64,000 nt of DNA, from positions 434,001-498,000 of the forward strand of contig NZ_CP089293.1 in NCBI RefSeq assembly GCF_021919345.1, read 5' to 3'. Positions 1 through 13,208 of the stretch are shown piece after piece. The position numbers and the translations under genes are program-made. The first letter of the stretch is position 1, and each line of letters opens with the position of its first letter. Source of the stretch: Paenarthrobacter nicotinovorans (GTDB lineage Bacteria > Actinomycetota > Actinomycetes > Actinomycetales > Micrococcaceae). The notes under the pieces are model-generated. The model did not search any database. It had not been told where the DNA came from and worked only from the letters and a program-made list of their open reading frames with translations.

Positions 1-90
1 GACGGCCGGGATGCCCACCGCCTTGGTTTTGGGTTTGGTGACGGTCAGCTTTGACTCATCAATATTTCCGTCGGGGGCTTTGGTAGCCAT
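1..90 (-). CDS. N-terminus of a probable FdhF/YdeP-like molybdopterin oxidoreductase (partial)
   Basis: Only the first 30 codons lie in the window, beginning MATKAPDGNIDESKL and running off the left edge. The ATG at 90 follows folD by 11 bp and has an AGGGAA ribosome-binding site in that gap, so it is the next gene of the same minus-strand operon. The short N-terminus recalls actinobacterial FdhF/YdeP-family formate-dehydrogenase-type proteins (DESKL followed by a basic PK-rich stretch). A formate-oxidising enzyme would fit downstream of PurU, which releases formate. The assignment rests on 30 residues plus context and is tentative. No cofactor motif is visible. Confidence 0.5.
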   Translation of the reverse strand, partial: MATKAPDGNIDESKLTVTKPKTKAVGIPAV

Positions 91-101
91 GAGGTTTCCC
101 T

Positions 102-989
102 TCAGATCCGGGCGGAGGAGGTGGCGGTGGCCAATTGGGCCGGCTCCTGCTGCCGTGCGGCTTCAACCGTGTGCAGGAGCAACAGGGCTGTGGTGACTGA
201 GCCTACGCCGCCGGGCACCGGGGTCAACCCGGCCGCGATACCGGTGACGCTCGCCTCGTCAACGTCCCCCACCAGTGAGCCGTCGGGCAGGACGTTGGTT
301 CCGACGTCGACCACTACCGTCTCCGGTGAGATGTGGCTGCCTTTAAGCAGGCCCGTCCTGCCGGCGGCAACAACCACGACGTCGGCCGGCAGGGTATAGC
401 GCTCCAGCGGCCCCGACCTGGAATGGCAGATGGTGACAGTCGCGTCCCGCTCCAGGAGGAGCAAGGCCAGCGGCTTGCCCACTACTGCGGATCGTCCGAC
501 GACGGCCACGTTGCGTCCCGCGACGGGCACATCAAAGTGGTCCAGCAGTTCCACCACGGCTTGCGCTGTTGCGGGGGCGAAGGCGGGTTGGCCTACAGCC
601 AAGCGGCCGAGGCTGAGGGGATTGGCGCCGTCGATGTCCTTTTCCGGGGCGATGAGGCCCACCAGCGAATCAGCCTTTACGCCCACCGGCAACGGCGTCT
701 GCAGGATGATTCCGTTGACCGAAGGTTCAGTGCTGAGATCCCCGAGGACGCTTGCCAATACCTGCTCGGTGGCCTCGGGTCCCAGGTCCACGATCCTGCA
801 ACCGATGCCCAGCCGTTCGGCTGCACGTTCGATGGAGCGGACGTACCAAAGCGTCGACTCGTCATCGGTGGCAACCACCACGGCCAGGACGGGATGGCGC
901 CCGCTGTTCTCCAGGGCGCGGGCTTCTTCCCCGGCGCGCTGTTGAATGAGGGTTGCCAGCTGCTTGCCGGAAAGCACTTGGGTGTTCAC
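102..989 (-). CDS. folD: FolD-family methylene-THF dehydrogenase, catalytic lysine replaced
   Basis: This 295-aa protein starts at a GTG and overlaps the preceding gene by 4 bp (GTGA). FolD normally oxidises methylene-THF to methenyl-THF (NADP) and then hydrolyses it to 10-formyl-THF. Family hallmarks are present: YVRSIERAAERLGI (residues 49-62), QTPLP, EKDIDG, the dinucleotide-site motif GRSAVVGKP and TPVPGGVG. Aligned without gaps to E. coli FolD (YVASKRKACEEVGF), the tyrosine is kept (Y49), but the catalytic lysine is Ile53 and the next lysine is Arg55. The usual PCTP is PATA and GGVGP is GGVGS. In studied FolD enzymes loss of this lysine abolishes cyclohydrolase activity, so this is inferred to be dehydrogenase-only or altered. 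Dimethylglycine oxidase two genes upstream would supply methylene-THF. Confidence 0.85.
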   Translation of the reverse strand: MNTQVLSGKQLATLIQQRAGEEARALENSGRHPVLAVVVATDDESTLWYVRSIERAAERLGIGCRIVDLGPEATEQVLASVLGDLSTEPSVNGIILQTPLPVGVKADSLVGLIAPEKDIDGANPLSLGRLAVGQPAFAPATAQAVVELLDHFDVPVAGRNVAVVGRSAVVGKPLALLLLERDATVTICHSRSGPLERYTLPADVVVVAAGRTGLLKGSHISPETVVVDVGTNVLPDGSLVGDVDEASVTGIAAGLTPVPGGVGSVTTALLLLHTVEAARQQEPAQLATATSSARI

Positions 990-1612
990 GAGAGGATCCT
1001 TTCGCGGACGCGCTTGACCAGGGAATCGGCTGCGAGGACCACTTTGTCCTCAAGTCCGTCCGTCTGCCCTGCCAGGCGGCTGCGGGCGGCGCTGTCCTTG
1101 ATGGCCACGACATTGATGTCGATGTTCACGCGCGCTGTCGTGGCGGCAGCGCGGGCGGCATCTGCAGCCGCGGCGACATCGCTGATGACGTTGGGGTTTG
1201 CCGCATCCAGGAGATCGGTGGCGAGGCTGACGACCTCACCGGCGACCCGGATGAGTTGCGCGGGAGTTTGGGCTGCCTGGACCAGGGCATCCTGGATGGC
1301 TGCGCTGCGGGCACTCTTGAGTTCGTCCGTGTCCGACGGGAGTTTGTAGGAGTCAATGACAGCCTGGAAGGCGTGCTCATCGGCGTCGGCCAGGCGCAAG
1401 GCTTCCACTACAAGGTGGTCGGCGGCGCTGGTGATCCGGGCTACGAGCGCGGCATGCTGCTCAAACTTCGCGCCTGTGGTGTACCGGGCCACCATGGCAA
1501 CCAATGCGGCTCCTTGTGCCGCGTGCAGCGCAGCGGCAGCACCGCCGCCCGGTGTGGGCTGGCGGGAGGCCAGCCTGGAGAGGTAGTTATTGATGGTTTC
1601 AGAGCTGATCAT
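986..1612 (-). CDS. Cyclodeaminase/cyclohydrolase (FTCD C-terminal) family protein, FchA-like
   Basis: A 208-aa, largely helical protein. I chose the ATG at 1612 because AGGACGG lies just upstream and the family homology begins there (MISSETINNYL); the frame extends 35 codons further without a better site. The glycine-rich motif PTPGGGAAAALHAAQGAA near residue 20 is the signature of the formiminotransferase-cyclodeaminase C-terminal family. Stand-alone members act on one-carbon folates, either as formimino-THF cyclodeaminase or, as in methylotroph FchA, as methenyl-THF cyclohydrolase. There is no formiminotransferase partner or histidine-degradation gene nearby. Its stop overlaps the start of the divergent folD, so a methenyl-THF cyclohydrolase role is the better inference. 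Confidence 0.8.
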   Translation of the reverse strand: MISSETINNYLSRLASRQPTPGGGAAAALHAAQGAALVAMVARYTTGAKFEQHAALVARITSAADHLVVEALRLADADEHAFQAVIDSYKLPSDTDELKSARSAAIQDALVQAAQTPAQLIRVAGEVVSLATDLLDAANPNVISDVAAAADAARAAATTARVNIDINVVAIKDSAARSRLAGQTDGLEDKVVLAADSLVKRVRERILS

Positions 1613-1759: not shown

Positions 1760-4300
<2,541 letters not shown>

Positions 4301-5218
4301 TTAGCGGAAGACGACCGTGCTGGTCCGGTCCAGGAGGACGCGGTGTTCGCAGTGCCAGCGGACGGCACGGGAAAGTGCCAGTGCTTCTGCGTCCTGGCCC
4401 ACAGTGGAAAGCGCGTTGGGGCCGTAGCTGTGGTCCACGCGGATGACTTCCTGCTCGATGATCGGGCCCTCGTCCAGGTCGGCGGTGACGTAGTGGGCGG
4501 TAGCACCCACCTGCTTCACGCCGCGGTCGTAGGCCTGGTGGTAGGGGCGGGCACCCTTGAAGCCGGGGAGGAAGGAATGGTGGATGTTGATCGCGCGTCC
4601 TTCCAGCTTGCGGCACAGGTCGTTCGAAAGGACCTGCATGTAGCGGGCCAGGACCACGAGGTCGGCCTTGTATTCGTCCACAAGTTCCAGGAGCTTTTGC
4701 TCCGCCTCGGCCTTGGTGTCCGGGGTTACGGGGATGTGGATGAAGGGCAGCCCGGCTGCCTCGGCCATGGCGCGGTGGGTCTCATGGTTGGAGACGACGG
4801 CGACGAGCTCGCCGCCGAGGCTGCCTCCGCGCCAGCGGAAGATGAGGTCGTTGAGGCAGTGGCCAAACTTGGAGACCATCACCAGGACGCGTTGCTTGGT
4901 CTGGTCGTGGAAGCTGAATTTCATATCGAAGCGGTCCGCGATGGAACGGAACTCATCCTCCAGCTGATCCGGGGAGTAGCTCTGGCCGCCGGAGAAGGCA
5001 GTGCGCAGGTGCAATGTCTGGCGCAGGCTGTCATCGAACTGCTGGTGCTCTTCGATGTTGAAGCCGCGCTCGAAGAGGAAAGTGGTGACTGCCTGCACGA
5101 TGCCCGGCTGTTCGACGCACGACAGTGTGAGTACGAACTTCTGCGCCTGCTCGTCCTTGAGCTGGCCGCGTTCTGCCGGAAGGGTGCTGAGGTGTGAGTC
5201 TGAAGCCACGAGGGTCAT
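4301..5218 (-). CDS. purU: Formyltetrahydrofolate deformylase
   Basis: A 305-aa PurU that hydrolyses 10-formyl-THF to formate and THF. An N-terminal ACT domain (about residues 28-105, KFVLTLSCVEQPGIVQAV) precedes the formyltransferase-fold domain. The catalytic signature is NIHHSFLPGFKG with the distal DEGPIIEQ. The ATG at 5218 has AAGGAGG 5-6 nt upstream. It is the first gene of the minus-strand C1 operon, just ahead of dimethylglycine oxidase. In this context it recycles free THF for the oxidase while discarding carbon as formate. Its promoter region, shared with the divergent GntR gene, holds an AT-rich inverted repeat. Confidence 0.95.
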   Translation of the reverse strand: MTLVASDSHLSTLPAERGQLKDEQAQKFVLTLSCVEQPGIVQAVTTFLFERGFNIEEHQQFDDSLRQTLHLRTAFSGGQSYSPDQLEDEFRSIADRFDMKFSFHDQTKQRVLVMVSKFGHCLNDLIFRWRGGSLGGELVAVVSNHETHRAMAEAAGLPFIHIPVTPDTKAEAEQKLLELVDEYKADLVVLARYMQVLSNDLCRKLEGRAINIHHSFLPGFKGARPYHQAYDRGVKQVGATAHYVTADLDEGPIIEQEVIRVDHSYGPNALSTVGQDAEALALSRAVRWHCEHRVLLDRTSTVVFR

Positions 5219-5349: not shown

Positions 5350-6030
5350 GTGGCTACTGGAACTCTCGCAAGCATTGGCGACGCCACCAGGAAATCACTG
5401 GCCGACGTGGCCTACGAACGGCTGCGCGACCGCTTGTTGATGCTTGAAATCAAGCCAGGGGACATCCTTAATGACGAACAGCTCGCCAAGGAGCTGGAAG
5501 TGGGGCGGACTCCCGTCCGTGAAGCTTTGAAACGGCTGGAGCTGGATCGGCTGGTGATTACCTACCCCCGGCGCGGAACGTTCGCCACCCGCGTGGAGGT
5601 AACCGACCTCGCCTTCATCTCCGAAATCCGCGCCCAGCTTGAACCGCTTGCCGCGGCCCGCGCAGCGCGGGTGGCTTCAGCTGCCACCAGGGAACATCTG
5701 CGGAACGTGATGCGGGCCGTGGAGGACTTCGATGTCAGCGCGGCGTCCGTGGTGGAAACCCTGCGTCTTGACGCGAGCGTGCATCAGGGCATCTATTCGG
5801 CTGCAGCGAATCCGCACCTGGAGGACGTGCTGATCCGCTATGACAATCTGGCCACGCGGATCTGGTGCATGGTACTTGACAGGCTTCCGGACCTCGAGCA
5901 CCACGTCCGCGAGCACCTGGATCTTCTGCGGGCTGTGATTGACGGCAACGAAGAAGCGGCCGCCGAACTCGCCCGTCTCCATGTCAGCGGATTTGAGCAA
6001 GCTGTTCGTCAGGCGCTGTTCGCCGCCTAA
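5350..6030 (+). CDS. GntR-family (FadR-like FCD) transcriptional regulator
   Basis: A 226-aa regulator. The GTG at 5350 is preferred because GAAGAAGGAG lies about 8 nt upstream; the frame is open for 52 more codons but that stretch covers the divergent promoter. The N-terminal winged helix (DVAYERLRDRLLMLEIKPGD, EELEVGRTPVREAL-like region) is followed by an all-helical FCD effector domain with the typical EIRAQLEPLAA start and metal-site histidines near DASVHQGIY and HVREHLDLL. It is divergent from purU-dmg-folD and directly upstream of pdxS. An AT-rich repeat is shared by both promoters, so it may control both. The ligand is unknown; dimethylglycine, sarcosine or a folate-linked metabolite are reasonable guesses. 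Confidence 0.88.
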   Translation: MATGTLASIGDATRKSLADVAYERLRDRLLMLEIKPGDILNDEQLAKELEVGRTPVREALKRLELDRLVITYPRRGTFATRVEVTDLAFISEIRAQLEPLAAARAARVASAATREHLRNVMRAVEDFDVSAASVVETLRLDASVHQGIYSAAANPHLEDVLIRYDNLATRIWCMVLDRLPDLEHHVREHLDLLRAVIDGNEEAAAELARLHVSGFEQAVRQALFAA

Positions 6031-6189: not shown

Positions 6190-7104
6190 GTGACTACACG
6201 ACACCCTCTTTTCGAACACATTCCGCTCACGGGCAGCAGCCGCGTCAAGCGGGGCATGGCGGAGATGCTCAAGGGCGGCGTCATCATGGACGTCGTTAAC
6301 GTCGAGCAGGCCCGCATCGCCGAGGACGCCGGTGCCGTGGCTGTCATGGCGCTTGAGCGCGTTCCGGCTGATATCCGCGCCCAGGGCGGCGTGTCCCGCA
6401 TGTCCGATCCGGACATGATCGATCAGATCATCGCTGCCGTGTCCATCCCGGTCATGGCCAAGGCCCGTATCGGCCACTTCGTCGAAGCCCAGGTCCTGCA
6501 GTCCCTCGGTGTTGACTACATCGATGAGTCCGAGGTCCTGACTCCGGCGGACTACATCAACCACATCGATAAATGGAACTTCACCGTCCCGTTCGTCTGT
6601 GGTGCCACCAACCTCGGTGAGGCTTTGCGCCGCATCAACGAGGGCGCGGCCATGATCCGTTCCAAGGGCGAAGCCGGTACCGGCGATGTTTCCAACGCCA
6701 CCGGTCACATGCGCAAGATCCGCTCCGAGATCGCCAAGCTCGCCGCCCTTCCCGAGGACGAGCTGTATGTTGCGGCCAAGGAGCTGCAGGCCCCGTACGA
6801 ACTGGTCAAGGAAATTGCCGCTACGGGCAAGCTTCCGGTGGTGTTGTTCACTGCCGGTGGCATCGCGACCCCGGCTGATGCTGCGATGATGATGCAGCTC
6901 GGCGCCGATGGCGTGTTCGTCGGTTCCGGTATCTTCAAGTCCGGCAACCCGGCAGAGCGTGCCGCCGCCGTCGTGAACGCTACTGCCTACTACGACGATC
7001 CTGACGTTATTGCCAAGGTCTCCCGCGGCCTGGGCGAAGCGATGGTCGGCATCAACGTCGACGACATCCCGCAGCCCCACCGCCTCGCAGAACGCGGCTG
7101 GTAG
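6190..7104 (+). CDS. pdxS: Pyridoxal 5'-phosphate synthase lyase subunit PdxS
   Basis: A 304-aa PdxS, the TIM-barrel subunit that makes PLP from ribose 5-phosphate, glyceraldehyde 3-phosphate and ammonia delivered by PdxT. The GTG at 6190 ([11 protein letters not shown]) fits the normal family length; the longer open frame runs back into the promoter. Active-site signatures are present: D34 in [10 protein letters not shown]91 in [10 protein letters not shown], and [11 protein letters not shown]. No pdxT follows; the next genes are a small ORF and a convergent LysR gene. PLP serves glycine/serine enzymes that use the sarcosine-derived carbon, which may explain its place beside the C1 operon. 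It may be a second pdxS copy in the genome, but that cannot be seen here. Confidence 0.96.
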
Positions 7105-8481: not shown

Positions 8482-9786
8482 ATGACTGCTCAAGTGAACG
8501 TGCCCCTGAATTCGCGCGGAAAACTCGCCTCAACATTGCCTGCCGAGCAGCTGGCCGAGATCAGTGCCCTGTTCGAGTTCCGGCGCACCGGCTACTCCTT
8601 GGACGCCCCCTTCTACACCGATCCCACGATCTTCAAGATCGACATGGAAGCCATCTTCGGTGCGCACTGGATCTTTGCCGGAAGCGTCGCCGAACTGCCG
8701 GAACCGGGTGACTACATCACGGTGGACTACGGCCCGTACTCCCTGATCGTCCTGCGCAACGACGACGGCGACGTCAACGTCCTGCACAACGTCTGCCGCC
8801 ACCGCGGTGCCCGGGTGCTGACCGAAGCCGCAGGCTCCACCGGAAACCTGGTGTGCGGCTACCACTCCTGGACCTACTCGCCCGAGGGCAACCTGATCCA
8901 CGCCTCGGCACCGGGGGAGACGAAGTTCGACAAGAACTGCTTCGCCCTCAAGCGCGCCCACAGCCGTGTCGTCGCGGGGCTCATTTTCGTCTGCATCGCG
9001 AGCGAGCCGCCGGCCGACTTCGATGAAACCTCAAAGATCTTCGAGCCCTACCTCGCGCCCCACGATCTGGCGAAGACAAAAATCGCCTACCAGCAGAACA
9101 TCATCGAAGAGGGCAACTGGAAGCTCGTCATGGAGAACAACCGTGAGTGCTACCACTGCGATGGGCACCCGGAACTCGCCTGCTCCCTCTTCCCCACGTG
9201 GGGACTCACCGAGGGCCTGATTCCGGCCCACCTTGAGGAAGTCTGGGACCGCAACAAGGAAGCCCAGTCCTCCCTCGAGGAGCGCTGCCGCCGCTATGGC
9301 CTCCCCTACGAGGTAGTGGAGGAACTCGACACGCGCATCGCCGGCATCCGCATCTCCCGCGAATCCCTGGACGGTGAAGGCGAATCGTTCTCGCCCGACG
9401 GGCGCAGGCTTTCCAAGAAGCTCCTGGGCGATCTGCGCGACTTCCGCCTCGGCCGCTGCTCCATGCACCTGCAGCCCAACAGCTGGTTCCACTTCCAGAG
9501 CGACCACGTCATCACGTTCGGCGTCTTCCCCATCAACGAACACCAGTCGCTGGTCCGCACCACCTGGCTGGTGGCTGACGACGCCGTGGAAGGCGTCGAC
9601 TACGACCTGGAAAAACTCACCTACACCTGGAAGCAGACGAACCTGCAGGACAAGGCGTTCGTTGAGCTGTGCCAGACGGGTGCCGGCAGCCCCGCCTACG
9701 AGCCCGGCCCCTACATGAAGAGCGAATACCAGGTGGAGGCATTCATCAATTGGTACGTCCAGCGCGTGCAGGAGCACTTGGCATGA
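8482..9786 (+). CDS. gbcA: Rieske-type glycine betaine monooxygenase, oxygenase subunit
   Basis: A 434-aa aromatic-ring-hydroxylating-type oxygenase. The ATG at 8482 follows GGGAGGAAA, and the normal N-terminus starts here. The Rieske 2Fe-2S ligands are C105, H107, C125 and H128 (NVCRHRGA ... CGYHSW). The mononuclear iron motif is ENNRECYHCDGHPEL, with H225 and H229. This motif form is typical of the betaine/stachydrine demethylase group. The adjacent reductase and the nearby dimethylglycine oxidase and choline oxidase point to glycine betaine -> dimethylglycine + formaldehyde. Stachydrine or carnitine cannot be excluded from sequence alone. The stop overlaps the gbcB start (ATGA). Confidence 0.9.
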   Translation: MTAQVNVPLNSRGKLASTLPAEQLAEISALFEFRRTGYSLDAPFYTDPTIFKIDMEAIFGAHWIFAGSVAELPEPGDYITVDYGPYSLIVLRNDDGDVNVLHNVCRHRGARVLTEAAGSTGNLVCGYHSWTYSPEGNLIHASAPGETKFDKNCFALKRAHSRVVAGLIFVCIASEPPADFDETSKIFEPYLAPHDLAKTKIAYQQNIIEEGNWKLVMENNRECYHCDGHPELACSLFPTWGLTEGLIPAHLEEVWDRNKEAQSSLEERCRRYGLPYEVVEELDTRIAGIRISRESLDGEGESFSPDGRRLSKKLLGDLRDFRLGRCSMHLQPNSWFHFQSDHVITFGVFPINEHQSLVRTTWLVADDAVEGVDYDLEKLTYTWKQTNLQDKAFVELCQTGAGSPAYEPGPYMKSEYQVEAFINWYVQRVQEHLA

Positions 9787-11198
9787 TTGAACTCCTCACT
9801 GAAACGGCAATCCGGGAGCCGCAGCGCATCCGGGGTCTTGAGATGCCGTGGAACCGGGTGATGGGCAGCAGCGAGGCACCCGCGCGTGCCGCACGTGCCC
9901 TGGGTCCCTGGCATCCGCAGGAGTTCATGGCCGAATGTGTCGAGACTGTTCCCGAGGCCGGCGGAATGATGACCTTCGTCTTCCGCCGTTGCGACGGGGC
10001 GCCCCTGGCGTTCCGTGCCGGCCAGTATGTCAACATCGCTTTTCCGGTAAACGGCGAGGACCAGGACCCGGTGGACCGCAGCTACTCGCTGTCCAGTTCG
10101 CCCACGGAGCCCTGGACCTTCAACATCACTGTCAAGAGCGATCCCACGGGCCTTGTGTCGCCATGGGTTCATGAGAACGTCAAGCCCGGCACTGTGCTGG
10201 ACATGCTCGGACCGGTGGGGGCTTTCCACCTGCCCGACGCCGACCGGCGCGCCAGGTACCTCCTGTTGGCCGCCGGTGCCGGCATCACCCCCATCATGTC
10301 GATGGTGCGGACCATCCACTCCCTGCCCGGCCATGCCGACGTCGTGGTGCTGTACCACGGAGCGGAGGCCGGCGGCTTCGCGTTCCACCGGGAGCTGGCA
10401 TACATCGCCTCCGTGGACTCACGCGTCAAGGTCTTCTACTCCCTGGGCGACCGCAGCAAACCGGAAGGATGGGAAGGGTTCAGCGGACGGCTCACAGCGG
10501 CCATGCTCGAAGAGGTGGCCCCTGACGCCAACGGCAGGCAGGTCTATGCCTGCGGCCCGGAAGGCTACCTGAACACGGCCACTGAGCTGCTGAAAAAGGT
10601 AGGCGTTGACGACACCTCCATCTACATGGAGTTCTTCACCGGTGACCGCCAGACCCTCCTCGAATACCAGGCAGAGCTCGCGCTCGCGGCAGATATTGCG
10701 GAGGAAATCGCCGAGGAAATCGCCGATTCCGCCGAGGACTACTACGAAAGCCAACCGGCAGCGTTCGGGCTCTACGAGCCGGGTTACGACGCCGACGGGA
10801 CTTTGGAAGCCACGGGACTCCCGCTGGAAACCTCCGACCCGGACGCCTCAGGTTCCCAAGCTTCCGACGGCGGTCCAAGCCAGGCGCCCGAGGCTGCAAC
10901 GCCTGATGCCTCGAGCTTCGAGACCGTCGGAACGGGAAGCCTCACTCTGTCCTTCCTGCGCACCGGCGTCAATGTCCGCATTGACCCCGATGAGCACATC
11001 CTGGGCGTGGCCCAGCGGGCCGGTGTCAGGATCGGTGCCAACTGCAAAGAGGGCATGTGCGGTTCCTGCAAGGTGGTCAAGCTTTCCGGCGAGGTGGAAA
11101 TGAACCACCAGGGCGGAATCCGCTCGCGGGAAATCGACGCCGGCAAGTTCCTGCCCTGCTGCTCCACGGCGCGCACCGATATGGTGATCGACGCCTAG
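9783..11198 (+). CDS. gbcB: Glycine betaine monooxygenase reductase subunit with long acidic linker
   Basis: A 471-aa electron-transfer protein feeding the Rieske oxygenase. It has an FAD-binding domain (RSYSLSSSP, residues 99-107), an NAD-binding domain (LLAAGAGITPIMSM, YACGPEGY) and a C-terminal plant-type 2Fe-2S domain with C421, C426, C429 and a cysteine at 459/460 (CKEGMCGSCK). Between the reductase and ferredoxin domains, residues about 290-385, lies an acidic, low-complexity stretch rich in D, E, S, P and A, starting with IAEEIAEEIADSAED. Most relatives are shorter (around 360-400 aa). The ATG overlaps the gbcA stop. The gene ends 4 bp from the convergent regulator gene. Confidence 0.9.
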   Translation: MIELLTETAIREPQRIRGLEMPWNRVMGSSEAPARAARALGPWHPQEFMAECVETVPEAGGMMTFVFRRCDGAPLAFRAGQYVNIAFPVNGEDQDPVDRSYSLSSSPTEPWTFNITVKSDPTGLVSPWVHENVKPGTVLDMLGPVGAFHLPDADRRARYLLLAAGAGITPIMSMVRTIHSLPGHADVVVLYHGAEAGGFAFHRELAYIASVDSRVKVFYSLGDRSKPEGWEGFSGRLTAAMLEEVAPDANGRQVYACGPEGYLNTATELLKKVGVDDTSIYMEFFTGDRQTLLEYQAELALAADIAEEIAEEIADSAEDYYESQPAAFGLYEPGYDADGTLEATGLPLETSDPDASGSQASDGGPSQAPEAATPDASSFETVGTGSLTLSFLRTGVNVRIDPDEHILGVAQRAGVRIGANCKEGMCGSCKVVKLSGEVEMNHQGGIRSREIDAGKFLPCCSTARTDMVIDA

Positions 11199-11201
11199 CT
11201 G

Positions 11202-12467
11202 TTACCGGAGTCCCGCACTGTGGGCCAGCGCAATGGCCTCAGTGCGGGACCGGACGTCCAGCTTCCGGAACAGGTTCCGCAGATGGAATTTGACCGTGTT
11301 TTCACTGATGTTCAGCTCTGCGGCGATGGCCCGGTTGCGTTGCCCGGCGGCCAATGCCTGAAGAACTTCCAATTCCCTGGTGGCCAGGCCCCACGCCGCG
11401 ACATCCCCCACGGGCGCTGCCGGCGGGTCCAAGGGAAGCGCCACTGAGATGTCTGCTCCCCACCCGTGCATGACGTCGACGCTCATTTTGCCGTCAAGGG
11501 CCTGCACCTTCTGGCGAAGCCGTTCCATGTTCGGGGCATCCGGGGACAGTTCCCCGCGTCCGTCATCCCTGACATTGATCAGCAGGTTTTCCCCGTCGCA
11601 GTCCCATTGGGCGCGTACGCGGTGCACATCGGGTTGCTCGGCGATCGCCAGGACCAGGCCCCGGACGACGGCCCTGGCAGCGTGGGCTACCTCTCCGGGC
11701 AGGGCACGTCCGTTGGCGGGTGGCTCGATGAACTGGATGTCGATGTTGCTGAAGTGCATCAACGGACGGAGGTCCTCCCGGAGCCTTTGGAAGGCGGTGC
11801 TCACAGGTTCTTCCACGAGATCGCTGGTGCGGTCGTTCAGGGTCCTGAGGCCGATCAGTGCCTTGACGGCGAGGTCGGTCACGGAGACCCGGGCCGCGTG
11901 ATCGTCCAAGGAGTTGGACCGCAGTGCGGCCAGCAGGGTTTCGAGGGTAGTAGAGTGCTGGTCCACCAGCTCCGCGGTTACGCGGATCCGTTCAGCTGAT
12001 GCTGCCCGGGACTCCAAAAGATACGACGGCGGCGCGTCACTGACCTTCTCCTGGATACGGGCCGCTGTGAGTCCCCAAAGGTAGGAGGCGAGGCGCAGTG
12101 GTTCATCGTCTTCCGGCAACTCCGGGTCGGTGAGGACCAGGAGGGCGTTGCTGGGCGGGTAGGTGAAGGCCAGAATGTCGCGCTCCTGCCCCGCAATCCA
12201 CGCTCGCGTCCGCCACGGCCCTTTCGCCTCCATGGATGCCCGGATCCCATCAAGCTCGGGGATGGAAACGCGGCTGACAATGCCCTCGGCACCCGCCTTT
12301 TTCTGGGGCCGGCCCGTGCAGTCTTCCGTGAAAATCACCAAGGCGCTGGAGGGGACCAACGGCGAGAGGGCCGTCCGCAGGCTCTCCGCGATACGCGCGA
12401 GGGGCGCTTGGGCGATGTCTTCGATGGCTTTGAGGAGCTGCCAGGGCACGGACGGTTGCTGGGGCAT
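11202..12467 (-). CDS. Fusion regulator: GAF-like/histidine-kinase-like ATPase with LuxR HTH
   Basis: A 421-aa protein. The C-terminal 60 residues are a LuxR/NarL HTH ([35 protein letters not shown]). Ahead of it, residues about 235-345 resemble a GHKL ATPase of sensor kinases ([15 protein letters not shown], the D-box-like DDGRG at 301-305). Residues 150-235 form a helical region with H171 in [13 protein letters not shown]. The first 145 residues look GAF-like. There is no receiver domain, so sensor and DNA-binding parts are in one chain. It is divergent from hxlB-hxlA and convergent with gbcB, suggesting control of formaldehyde fixation or betaine demethylation. Kinase activity is not established; the N-box is not obvious. 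Confidence 0.8.
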
Positions 12468-12617
12468 ATCCCAAGCGTAGACGAGCAGTTACGTTCTTGC
12501 CTACCCGAACGGGTGGCCAGGACTGTCCTTTTTCGGCGTTTCAGCCAACCCTGCCAGTCGGAAGAATAGTTACAAGGTCGGAAGGCCGCTATCAACCACC
12601 CACGAACGGAGTGAACC

Positions 12618-13208
12618 GTGAACGTCTTTGCAGACACCGCGACAGCCACAGCTGAAGACGTAGCCGGCAACGCCTCCCTGATCCTCGCAGAGCTTGGGGG
12701 CATTGCTTCCGAACTGGACTACGGCCAGGTTGCCCGCCTTGCAGAGGAAGTTGGCGCAGCGGAGCGCGTCTTCCTGGCCGGAGCCGGCCGGAGCGGGCTG
12801 GTGCTCCGAATGGCCGCGATGCGCTTGATGCATCTGGGCCTGACGGTCTACGTAGCCGGCGACACCACAACACCGGCCATCACTGCCGGCGATTTGTTGC
12901 TGGTGGCATCCGGTTCCGGGACCACCTCCGGCGTGGTCAAAGCAGCCCAGACAGCACTGGCCGCGGGGGCGCGGGTGGCAGCAGTAACCACCAACCCCTC
13001 GTCCGCTGTTGCGGGCTTCGCCGACGCGCTGGTGGTCATTCCCGCCGCGCGGAAGACTGACCACGGCTCCGACCTGTCCCGGCAATACTCGGGCAGCCTC
13101 TTTGAACAATCCCTTTTCCTGGTGACGGAGTCGGTTTTCCAAACTCTGTGGGAAGCCACTGCAGAGCCCGCCGAGAAGCTCTGGCTGCGTCACGCAAACC
13201 TCGAATAG
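12618..13208 (+). CDS. hxlB: 6-phospho-3-hexuloisomerase
   Basis: A 196-aa SIS-domain isomerase that converts D-arabino-3-hexulose 6-phosphate to fructose 6-phosphate in the ribulose monophosphate pathway. It starts at GTG 12618 after a GGAG. SIS hallmarks are VFLAGAGRSGLVLRMAAMRLMHLG (as GAGRSG) and LLLVASGSGTTSGVV. The C-terminus has the phosphohexuloisomerase pattern DLSRQYSGSLFEQ. hxlA follows 51 bp downstream. The pair fixes formaldehyde, which the adjacent Rieske demethylation should release. Confidence 0.93.
   Translation: MNVFADTATATAEDVAGNASLILAELGGIASELDYGQVARLAEEVGAAERVFLAGAGRSGLVLRMAAMRLMHLGLTVYVAGDTTTPAITAGDLLLVASGSGTTSGVVKAAQTALAAGARVAAVTTNPSSAVAGFADALVVIPAARKTDHGSDLSRQYSGSLFEQSLFLVTESVFQTLWEATAEPAEKLWLRHANLE

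Follow-up and report, generated by a model that had tools for sequence, protein, structure and literature searches.

Introduction

Methylene-tetrahydrofolate (methylene-THF) dehydrogenase and methenyl-THF cyclohydrolase are encoded by separate genes in acetogens, with neighbouring locus tags in Clostridium autoethanogenum (PMC9040625 and PMC4022347), and separate FolD and FchA proteins are also described for acetogens and other bacteria in PMC3584212, PMC8515935, PMC7219735 and PMC10213532. Here we analyse a folD-like gene and an overlapping gene of the FTCD_C family in Paenarthrobacter nicotinovorans, located in a stretch of 64,000 nucleotides (contig NZ_CP089293.1, positions 434,001 to 498,000), hereafter called the window. 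As in the clostridial and acetogen systems, dehydrogenase and cyclohydrolase would reside in separate genes; those genes accompany Fhs in the reductive Wood-Ljungdahl pathway, whereas the window pair stands in an aerobic, oxidative betaine cluster together with PurU.

Clostridium perfringens is likewise said to possess separate FolD and FchA proteins, in work attributed to Aluri in 2016. In Methylobacterium/Methylorubrum extorquens the cyclohydrolase FchA belongs to the FTCD_C family, as in the window, and the dehydrogenase is MtdA, not FolD. The bifunctional FolD and MTHFD1 enzymes share with the window FolD the same two domains and the active-site Tyr, Gln and Asp, and differ from it in that the window protein has Ile instead of Lys and the cyclohydrolase occupies a gene of its own. 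The dmg and sarcosine clusters of Arthrobacter reportedly combine dmg with folate genes (work of Meskys from 2001, which PMC3534580 cites), and to our knowledge that account makes no statement on a missing lysine or a split reaction. Yeast MTD1, for which we know of no FchA partner, is related only very remotely to the FolD of the window (1edz, 28.4 bits). It is a FolD relative performing the dehydrogenase step only, according to the reference list of PMC11064299, and a methanotroph carrying mtdA and fchA besides folD is described in PMC7298851. A partial literature search, which does not by itself establish novelty, retrieved neither a text that ties FchA to a FolD without its lysine nor any split reaction in dmg clusters. 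The split between FolD and FchA is known in clostridia; the form described here is a new variant, set in an aerobic betaine pathway, in which FolD and FchA are an old pair that evolves jointly and two residues provide a rule.

Loss of the catalytic lysine in FolD

We consider it very probable, judging from the sequences, that the bifunctional FolD reaction is divided here between two overlapping genes, with FolD acting as a dehydrogenase only and the FTCD_C protein as an FchA cyclohydrolase that feeds PurU. The genes with their residues and order, their conservation, their correlated evolution and the lack of an FTCD_N match are observed; the two activities and the oxidative direction of the flux are what we infer.

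The folD-like gene (102..989, minus strand) has a GTG start and encodes 295 aa, with Ile53 in place of the cyclohydrolase lysine. The codons of W48-Y49-V50-R51-S52-I53 occupy 831..848 on the same strand, where Ile53 is encoded by ATC (833..831). Both domains, PF00763 and PF02882, were matched above the Pfam cut-off (183.3 and 86.3 bits), and the lysine of the Y-x-x-x-K motif in the three best solved FolDs aligns with Ile53. The original prediction had placed an isoleucine at this position, which the alignments confirm; the catalytic lysine by which a bifunctional FolD is recognized is thus missing from the window protein. Tyr49, Gln97 and Asp120 are retained, the last two being the equivalents of Gln98 and Asp121. 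From its GRS/CHS residues, by analogy with human MTHFD1, we presume a preference for nicotinamide adenine dinucleotide phosphate (NADP). According to PMC3338484, this lysine is the general acid/base of the cyclohydrolase step and is placed with the help of Gln98, and the pterin is positioned by Asp121. We predict the folD product to be a methylene-THF dehydrogenase devoid of cyclohydrolase activity.

One could argue that FolD keeps a useful cyclohydrolase activity by another route, through water or a different residue, and that the FTCD_C protein merely accelerates the step. Tyr49, Gln97 and Asp120 would be at hand for such a reaction, and methenyl-THF does hydrolyse slowly without enzyme. We nevertheless regard this as quite unlikely, since FolDs with Ile or Leu at position 53 (Ile/Leu type) have acquired no new lysine in the catalytic domain, both genomes with a single, Leu53 FolD (G050 and G235, discussed below) carry a partner FTCD_C, and PMC3338484 assigns the general acid/base role to the lysine. 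A replacement lysine specific to the type was sought in the catalytic domain of 22 Ile/Leu-type rows, some of them repeated, and none was found: only positions 9, 117 and 172 are rich in lysine, the first two are so in Lys-type rows as well, and position 172 lies in the C-terminal domain and is Lys in 46 of 105 Lys-type rows. A replacement lysine was rejected on these counts.

The FTCD_C partner

The partner gene (986..1612, minus strand) encodes a predicted FchA-type methenyl-THF cyclohydrolase of 208 aa, and its stop is overlapped by the folD start over 4 bp. The coordinates and a Pfam FTCD_C score of 173.7 bits (cut-off 24.5) agree with the earlier description of an overlapping FTCD_C-family neighbour. 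FchA (NF045657, 148.7 bits) was the sole NCBIfam model to match the protein. Its best solved relative is the methenyl-THF cyclohydrolase 7vg4, which we take to come from Methylobacterium/Methylorubrum extorquens, with 108.9 bits, against 68.8 for the formiminotransferase-cyclodeaminase (FTCD) 1tt9.

Because the Pfam family also contains cyclodeaminases, the protein might instead serve the breakdown of histidine or purines as a formimino-THF cyclodeaminase and lie beside FolD by chance. We hold this to be highly unlikely in view of the higher score of 7vg4, of neighbouring genes that deal with methyl and formyl groups, and of the FTCD_N formiminotransferase, which was sought without a match in the window's genome and in seven others with the same or an allied pair (0 of 8). 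With FTCD_N lacking a match, the cyclodeaminase role is disfavoured. A lone, divergent second FTCD_C protein is encoded elsewhere in the window's genome (L009, 5835-6719; C1:920095), which, as said, gave no formiminotransferase match.

Conservation in related loci

A scan of a genome collection with the window FolD, using six search patterns that all exclude residue 53, yielded 65 related loci. Position 53 is Ile in every one of them (65/65), and FTCD_C lies directly upstream of folD in all 65, at a distance of 86 bases in L074. Sixty-one of the loci belong to what we take to be the family Micrococcaceae; the other four come from Planotetraspora, Streptomyces, a Saccharimonadales metagenome-assembled genome (MAG) and an Eubacteriales MAG (L074), whose FolD falls in another clade and has Phe at 97. 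In a Saccharimonadales bin (L072, about 0.8 Mb), where the FTCD_C-FolD(Ile) pair is present, a search for Fhs gave no match.

Codon 53 is ATC in 34, ATT in 26 and ATA in 4 of the 64 sequences compared (the window and 63 loci), all encoding Ile, and the median ratio of non-synonymous to synonymous substitution rates (dN/dS) of folD relative to the window is 0.14 (63 comparisons). The use of three codons for the same residue in every sequence, with this low dN/dS, indicates that Ile53 is held by selection. A recent mutation or an assembly error as its source is ruled out by the 65 loci, the three codons and the tree presented below. That the Ile-type FolD is idle or regulatory, with the flux carried by the two Lys-type FolDs that the genome holds, is extremely unlikely given the median dN/dS of 0.14, the conserved active-site residues and the finding that an Ile/Leu-type FolD is the only PF00763 match in G050, G235 and G279.

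Other Arthrobacter-type dmg clusters were examined, as had been proposed. All 61 Micrococcaceae loci combine Ile with fchA, and both dmg and purU are present in 59; the exceptions are L026, at a contig end, and L039. A match to the formate dehydrogenase-like protein was present within the fetched flank in 42 of the 61, a few of these matches being partial.

Residues 53 and 97 across genomes

Among 296 genomes of the window's phylum, FTCD_C was matched in 105 and FolD in 281. FolD adjoins FTCD_C at 54 of the 110 places read (119 listed), and none of these 54 FolDs has Lys at position 53, which is occupied by Val, Ala, Ile or Leu. Lysine was found in all 30 low-scoring FolDs picked from genomes without FTCD_C, as well as in the 30 best-scoring FolDs of the phylum, selected irrespective of FTCD_C content. 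In 30 picked genomes that have FTCD_C with no FolD beside it, the best-scoring FolD has Lys in 28 and Leu in G050 and G235; in ten of these genomes, second FolDs were all non-Lys.

In the phylum of L074's genome, FTCD_C was matched in 146 of 249 genomes, and a readable FolD adjoins it at 26 of the 70 listed places read. Fifteen of these FolDs are non-Lys, and the remaining 11 keep Lys and have Glu in place of Gln97 (L340, L341, L348, L350, L356, L360, L363, L370, L372, L379 and L385), unlike the window protein with Ile53 and Gln97. Replacement of Gln97 by Glu with the lysine kept is a possible second way of losing the cyclohydrolase. When the FolDs were pooled (207 unique sequences), Lys53 and Gln97 were both intact in 103, none of which has FTCD_C beside it, and all 89 that adjoin FTCD_C have lost Lys or Gln; "beside" was judged within fetched flanks, often of 1.5 kb only and some ending at contig ends. 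The pool was assembled partly through FTCD_C and contains related rows, so that a Fisher value computed from it is no fair probability.

In three FolD-like proteins (L308, L309 and L310), position 53 is Val or Leu, position 97 is Leu and position 120 is Glu. FTCD_C was not found in their genomes, and perhaps they have a different function.

Descent and co-evolution of the pair

A FolD tree of 90 representatives was built with columns 53 and 97 excluded. Support is 64 for the branch that encloses the 50 standard rows. The window FolD is placed apart from both Lys-type FolDs encoded in the same genome and shares a clade with the FolDs of Planotetraspora, Saccharimonadales and G050 (Leu); L186, from G279, joins them with a support of 86. 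The window FTCD_C shares a clade with the partners from Streptomyces, Saccharimonadales and G279 and with the FTCD_C of G050, which is not linked to its FolD. The substitution of Lys by Ile was correctly recognized in the original prediction, and its implied status as a recent change in an Arthrobacter FolD was not, since the tree places it in a deep FolD lineage. Distances between FolDs and between their FTCD_C partners mirror each other (r 0.88 over 87 pairs, 85 adjacent and 2 unlinked; 0 of 2000 permutations as high), a correlation that is inflated by shared descent.

The drafts G050, G235 and G279 each have a single FolD (PF00763) match, of the non-Lys Ile/Leu type. In G050 and G235, whose FolD has Leu53, FTCD_C is encoded on a contig other than that of FolD and is nearest to the partners of Ile-type FolDs. 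Searches of the three drafts for Fhs and FTCD_N gave no match for either, and no other evident means than FTCD_C is left in them for converting methenyl-THF to 10-formyl-THF.

Several observations weigh against a split reaction. The window FolD still has Gln97 and Asp120, and the FchA score of its partner (148.7) is below the NCBI equivalog cut-off of 275. The window's genome holds two Lys-type FolDs and Fhs besides the Ile-type FolD and, with these, need not depend on this FchA. No FolD adjoins FTCD_C at 56 of the 110 places in the window's phylum, nor a readable one at 44 of the 70 in that of L074, one of which has an unreadable FolD piece. Among the pooled FolDs, 15 have lost Lys or Gln and do not adjoin FTCD_C. 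Three of these 15 are the non-Lys FolDs found in 3 of the 12 genomes with at least two FolDs and no FTCD_C match (G149, G135 and G049), and a rule by which non-Lys FolDs occur only where the genome has FTCD_C is thus not strictly true. Finally, many independent losses of the lysine were looked for on the 90-sequence tree and not found: one change suffices for Lys-and-Gln intact versus lost, giving one independent pair, and Lys alone needs two changes, giving two. With so few changes the pooled Fisher values are not independent evidence, and the association between Lys/Gln loss and FTCD_C may go back to a single old event and have been inherited since.

Proposed route and its implications

A division of the reaction between FolD and the FTCD_C protein is nonetheless supported by the pairing in 65 relatives, the loss of Lys or Gln in FolDs beside FTCD_C, the mirrored distances, the lack of FTCD_N and of a new lysine, and the presence of a Lys-type FolD in a dmg-like cluster without FTCD_C, and the split proposed at the outset remains the reading we infer. 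In such a scheme, dimethylglycine oxidase would make methylene-THF from an N-methyl group and the window FolD would oxidise it to methenyl-THF, the general acid/base lysine of the next step being absent from this FolD. The FchA-type FTCD_C protein would then hydrolyse methenyl-THF to 10-formyl-THF, PurU would free THF and formate, and the oxidation of formate to CO2 would fall to the neighbouring molybdenum enzyme together with FdhD. This is a likely route for the methyl carbon of dimethylglycine to formate in Arthrobacter relatives. The substitution itself is of ancient date and also occurs outside dmg clusters.

A wider proposal, which could equally well prove right or wrong, is that the Ile/Leu-type FolD and FchA together make up an obligate split enzyme of ancient origin, common to actinobacteria and Saccharimonadales, and that in some actinobacteria, which have a single FolD and neither Fhs nor a formiminotransferase, the FTCD_C protein is an unrecognised, essential source of 10-formyl-THF. 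If so, a FolD that has lost Lys53 or Gln97 would be a sign, in bacteria at large, that FchA is needed. A simple rule based on these two residues is suggested, which separates FolDs in which both activities are expected from those probably needing FchA. Among the 120 relatives listed, many of the rows that have a name are named for both FolD activities; given the same FolD/FTCD_C pairing in distant bacteria, some of these "bifunctional" labels are probably wrong. For metabolic models it matters that the genomes indicated here probably have no cyclohydrolase other than an FTCD_C protein.

Genomic context

On the 165-kb, plasmid-sized contig C2 of the window's genome, a second cluster (L007) comprises a Lys-type folD (8696-9694), a dmg-like gene (9719-12193) and a purU-like gene (12249-13112), the last identified by eye. 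Both FTCD_C genes of the genome lie on the first contig and none on this one. With a Lys-type FolD in this second dmg-like cluster and no FTCD_C, the same chemistry appears in two forms within one cell.

In the window, the dmg-like gene (1760..4252) and purU (4301..5218) lie upstream of folD on the same, minus strand. The former encodes an oxidase dependent on flavin adenine dinucleotide (FAD) with a folate-binding GCV_T domain (DAO, FAO_M, GCV_T and GCV_T_C domains), probably a dimethylglycine oxidase, a name that follows its relatives in PMC3534580. The latter encodes formyltetrahydrofolate deformylase (TIGR00655, 324.6 bits; cut-off 285.95). Downstream of folD, and mostly beyond the window, are the gene of an FdhF/YdeP-family molybdopterin oxidoreductase, a formaldehyde dehydrogenase gene, a moeA-like gene, fdhD and the gene of a BCCT-family transporter (492.1 bits, cut-off 407.55). 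The oxidoreductase, probably a formate dehydrogenase, has 772 aa (minus strand, C1:431772-434090; TIGR01701, 950.1 bits, cut-off 582.15) and starts at base 90, with 1..90 in the window, consistent with the formate dehydrogenase start that had been suspected there. PurU, FdhD (328.5 bits, cut-off 269) and the glutathione-independent formaldehyde dehydrogenase FdhA (750.7 bits, cut-off 636.95) each score above the cut-off of their model.

On the plus strand, a GbcA-like Rieske oxygenase (8482..9786; Rieske domain; best NCBIfam model NF058607, 381.5 bits, cut-off 670) is probably a glycine betaine monooxygenase, followed by its GbcB-like reductase partner (9783..11198; NF058606, 237.1 bits, cut-off 500), with domains binding nicotinamide adenine dinucleotide (NAD), FAD and 2Fe-2S. 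The gene set reads as a cluster for the conversion of glycine betaine to formate and CO2, the presumed direction of flux. A divergent gene with Pfam GntR and FCD domains (5350..6030, plus strand; start codon not settled) encodes a possible regulator of the cluster. The gene at 6193-7104 (plus strand) is presumably that of PdxS, of vitamin B6 synthesis. In eleven of the related loci (L024, L025, L037, L041, L042, L045, L048, L052, L053, L062 and L070), folD is followed, a few kb downstream, by a second dmg-like gene with 66-69% identity.
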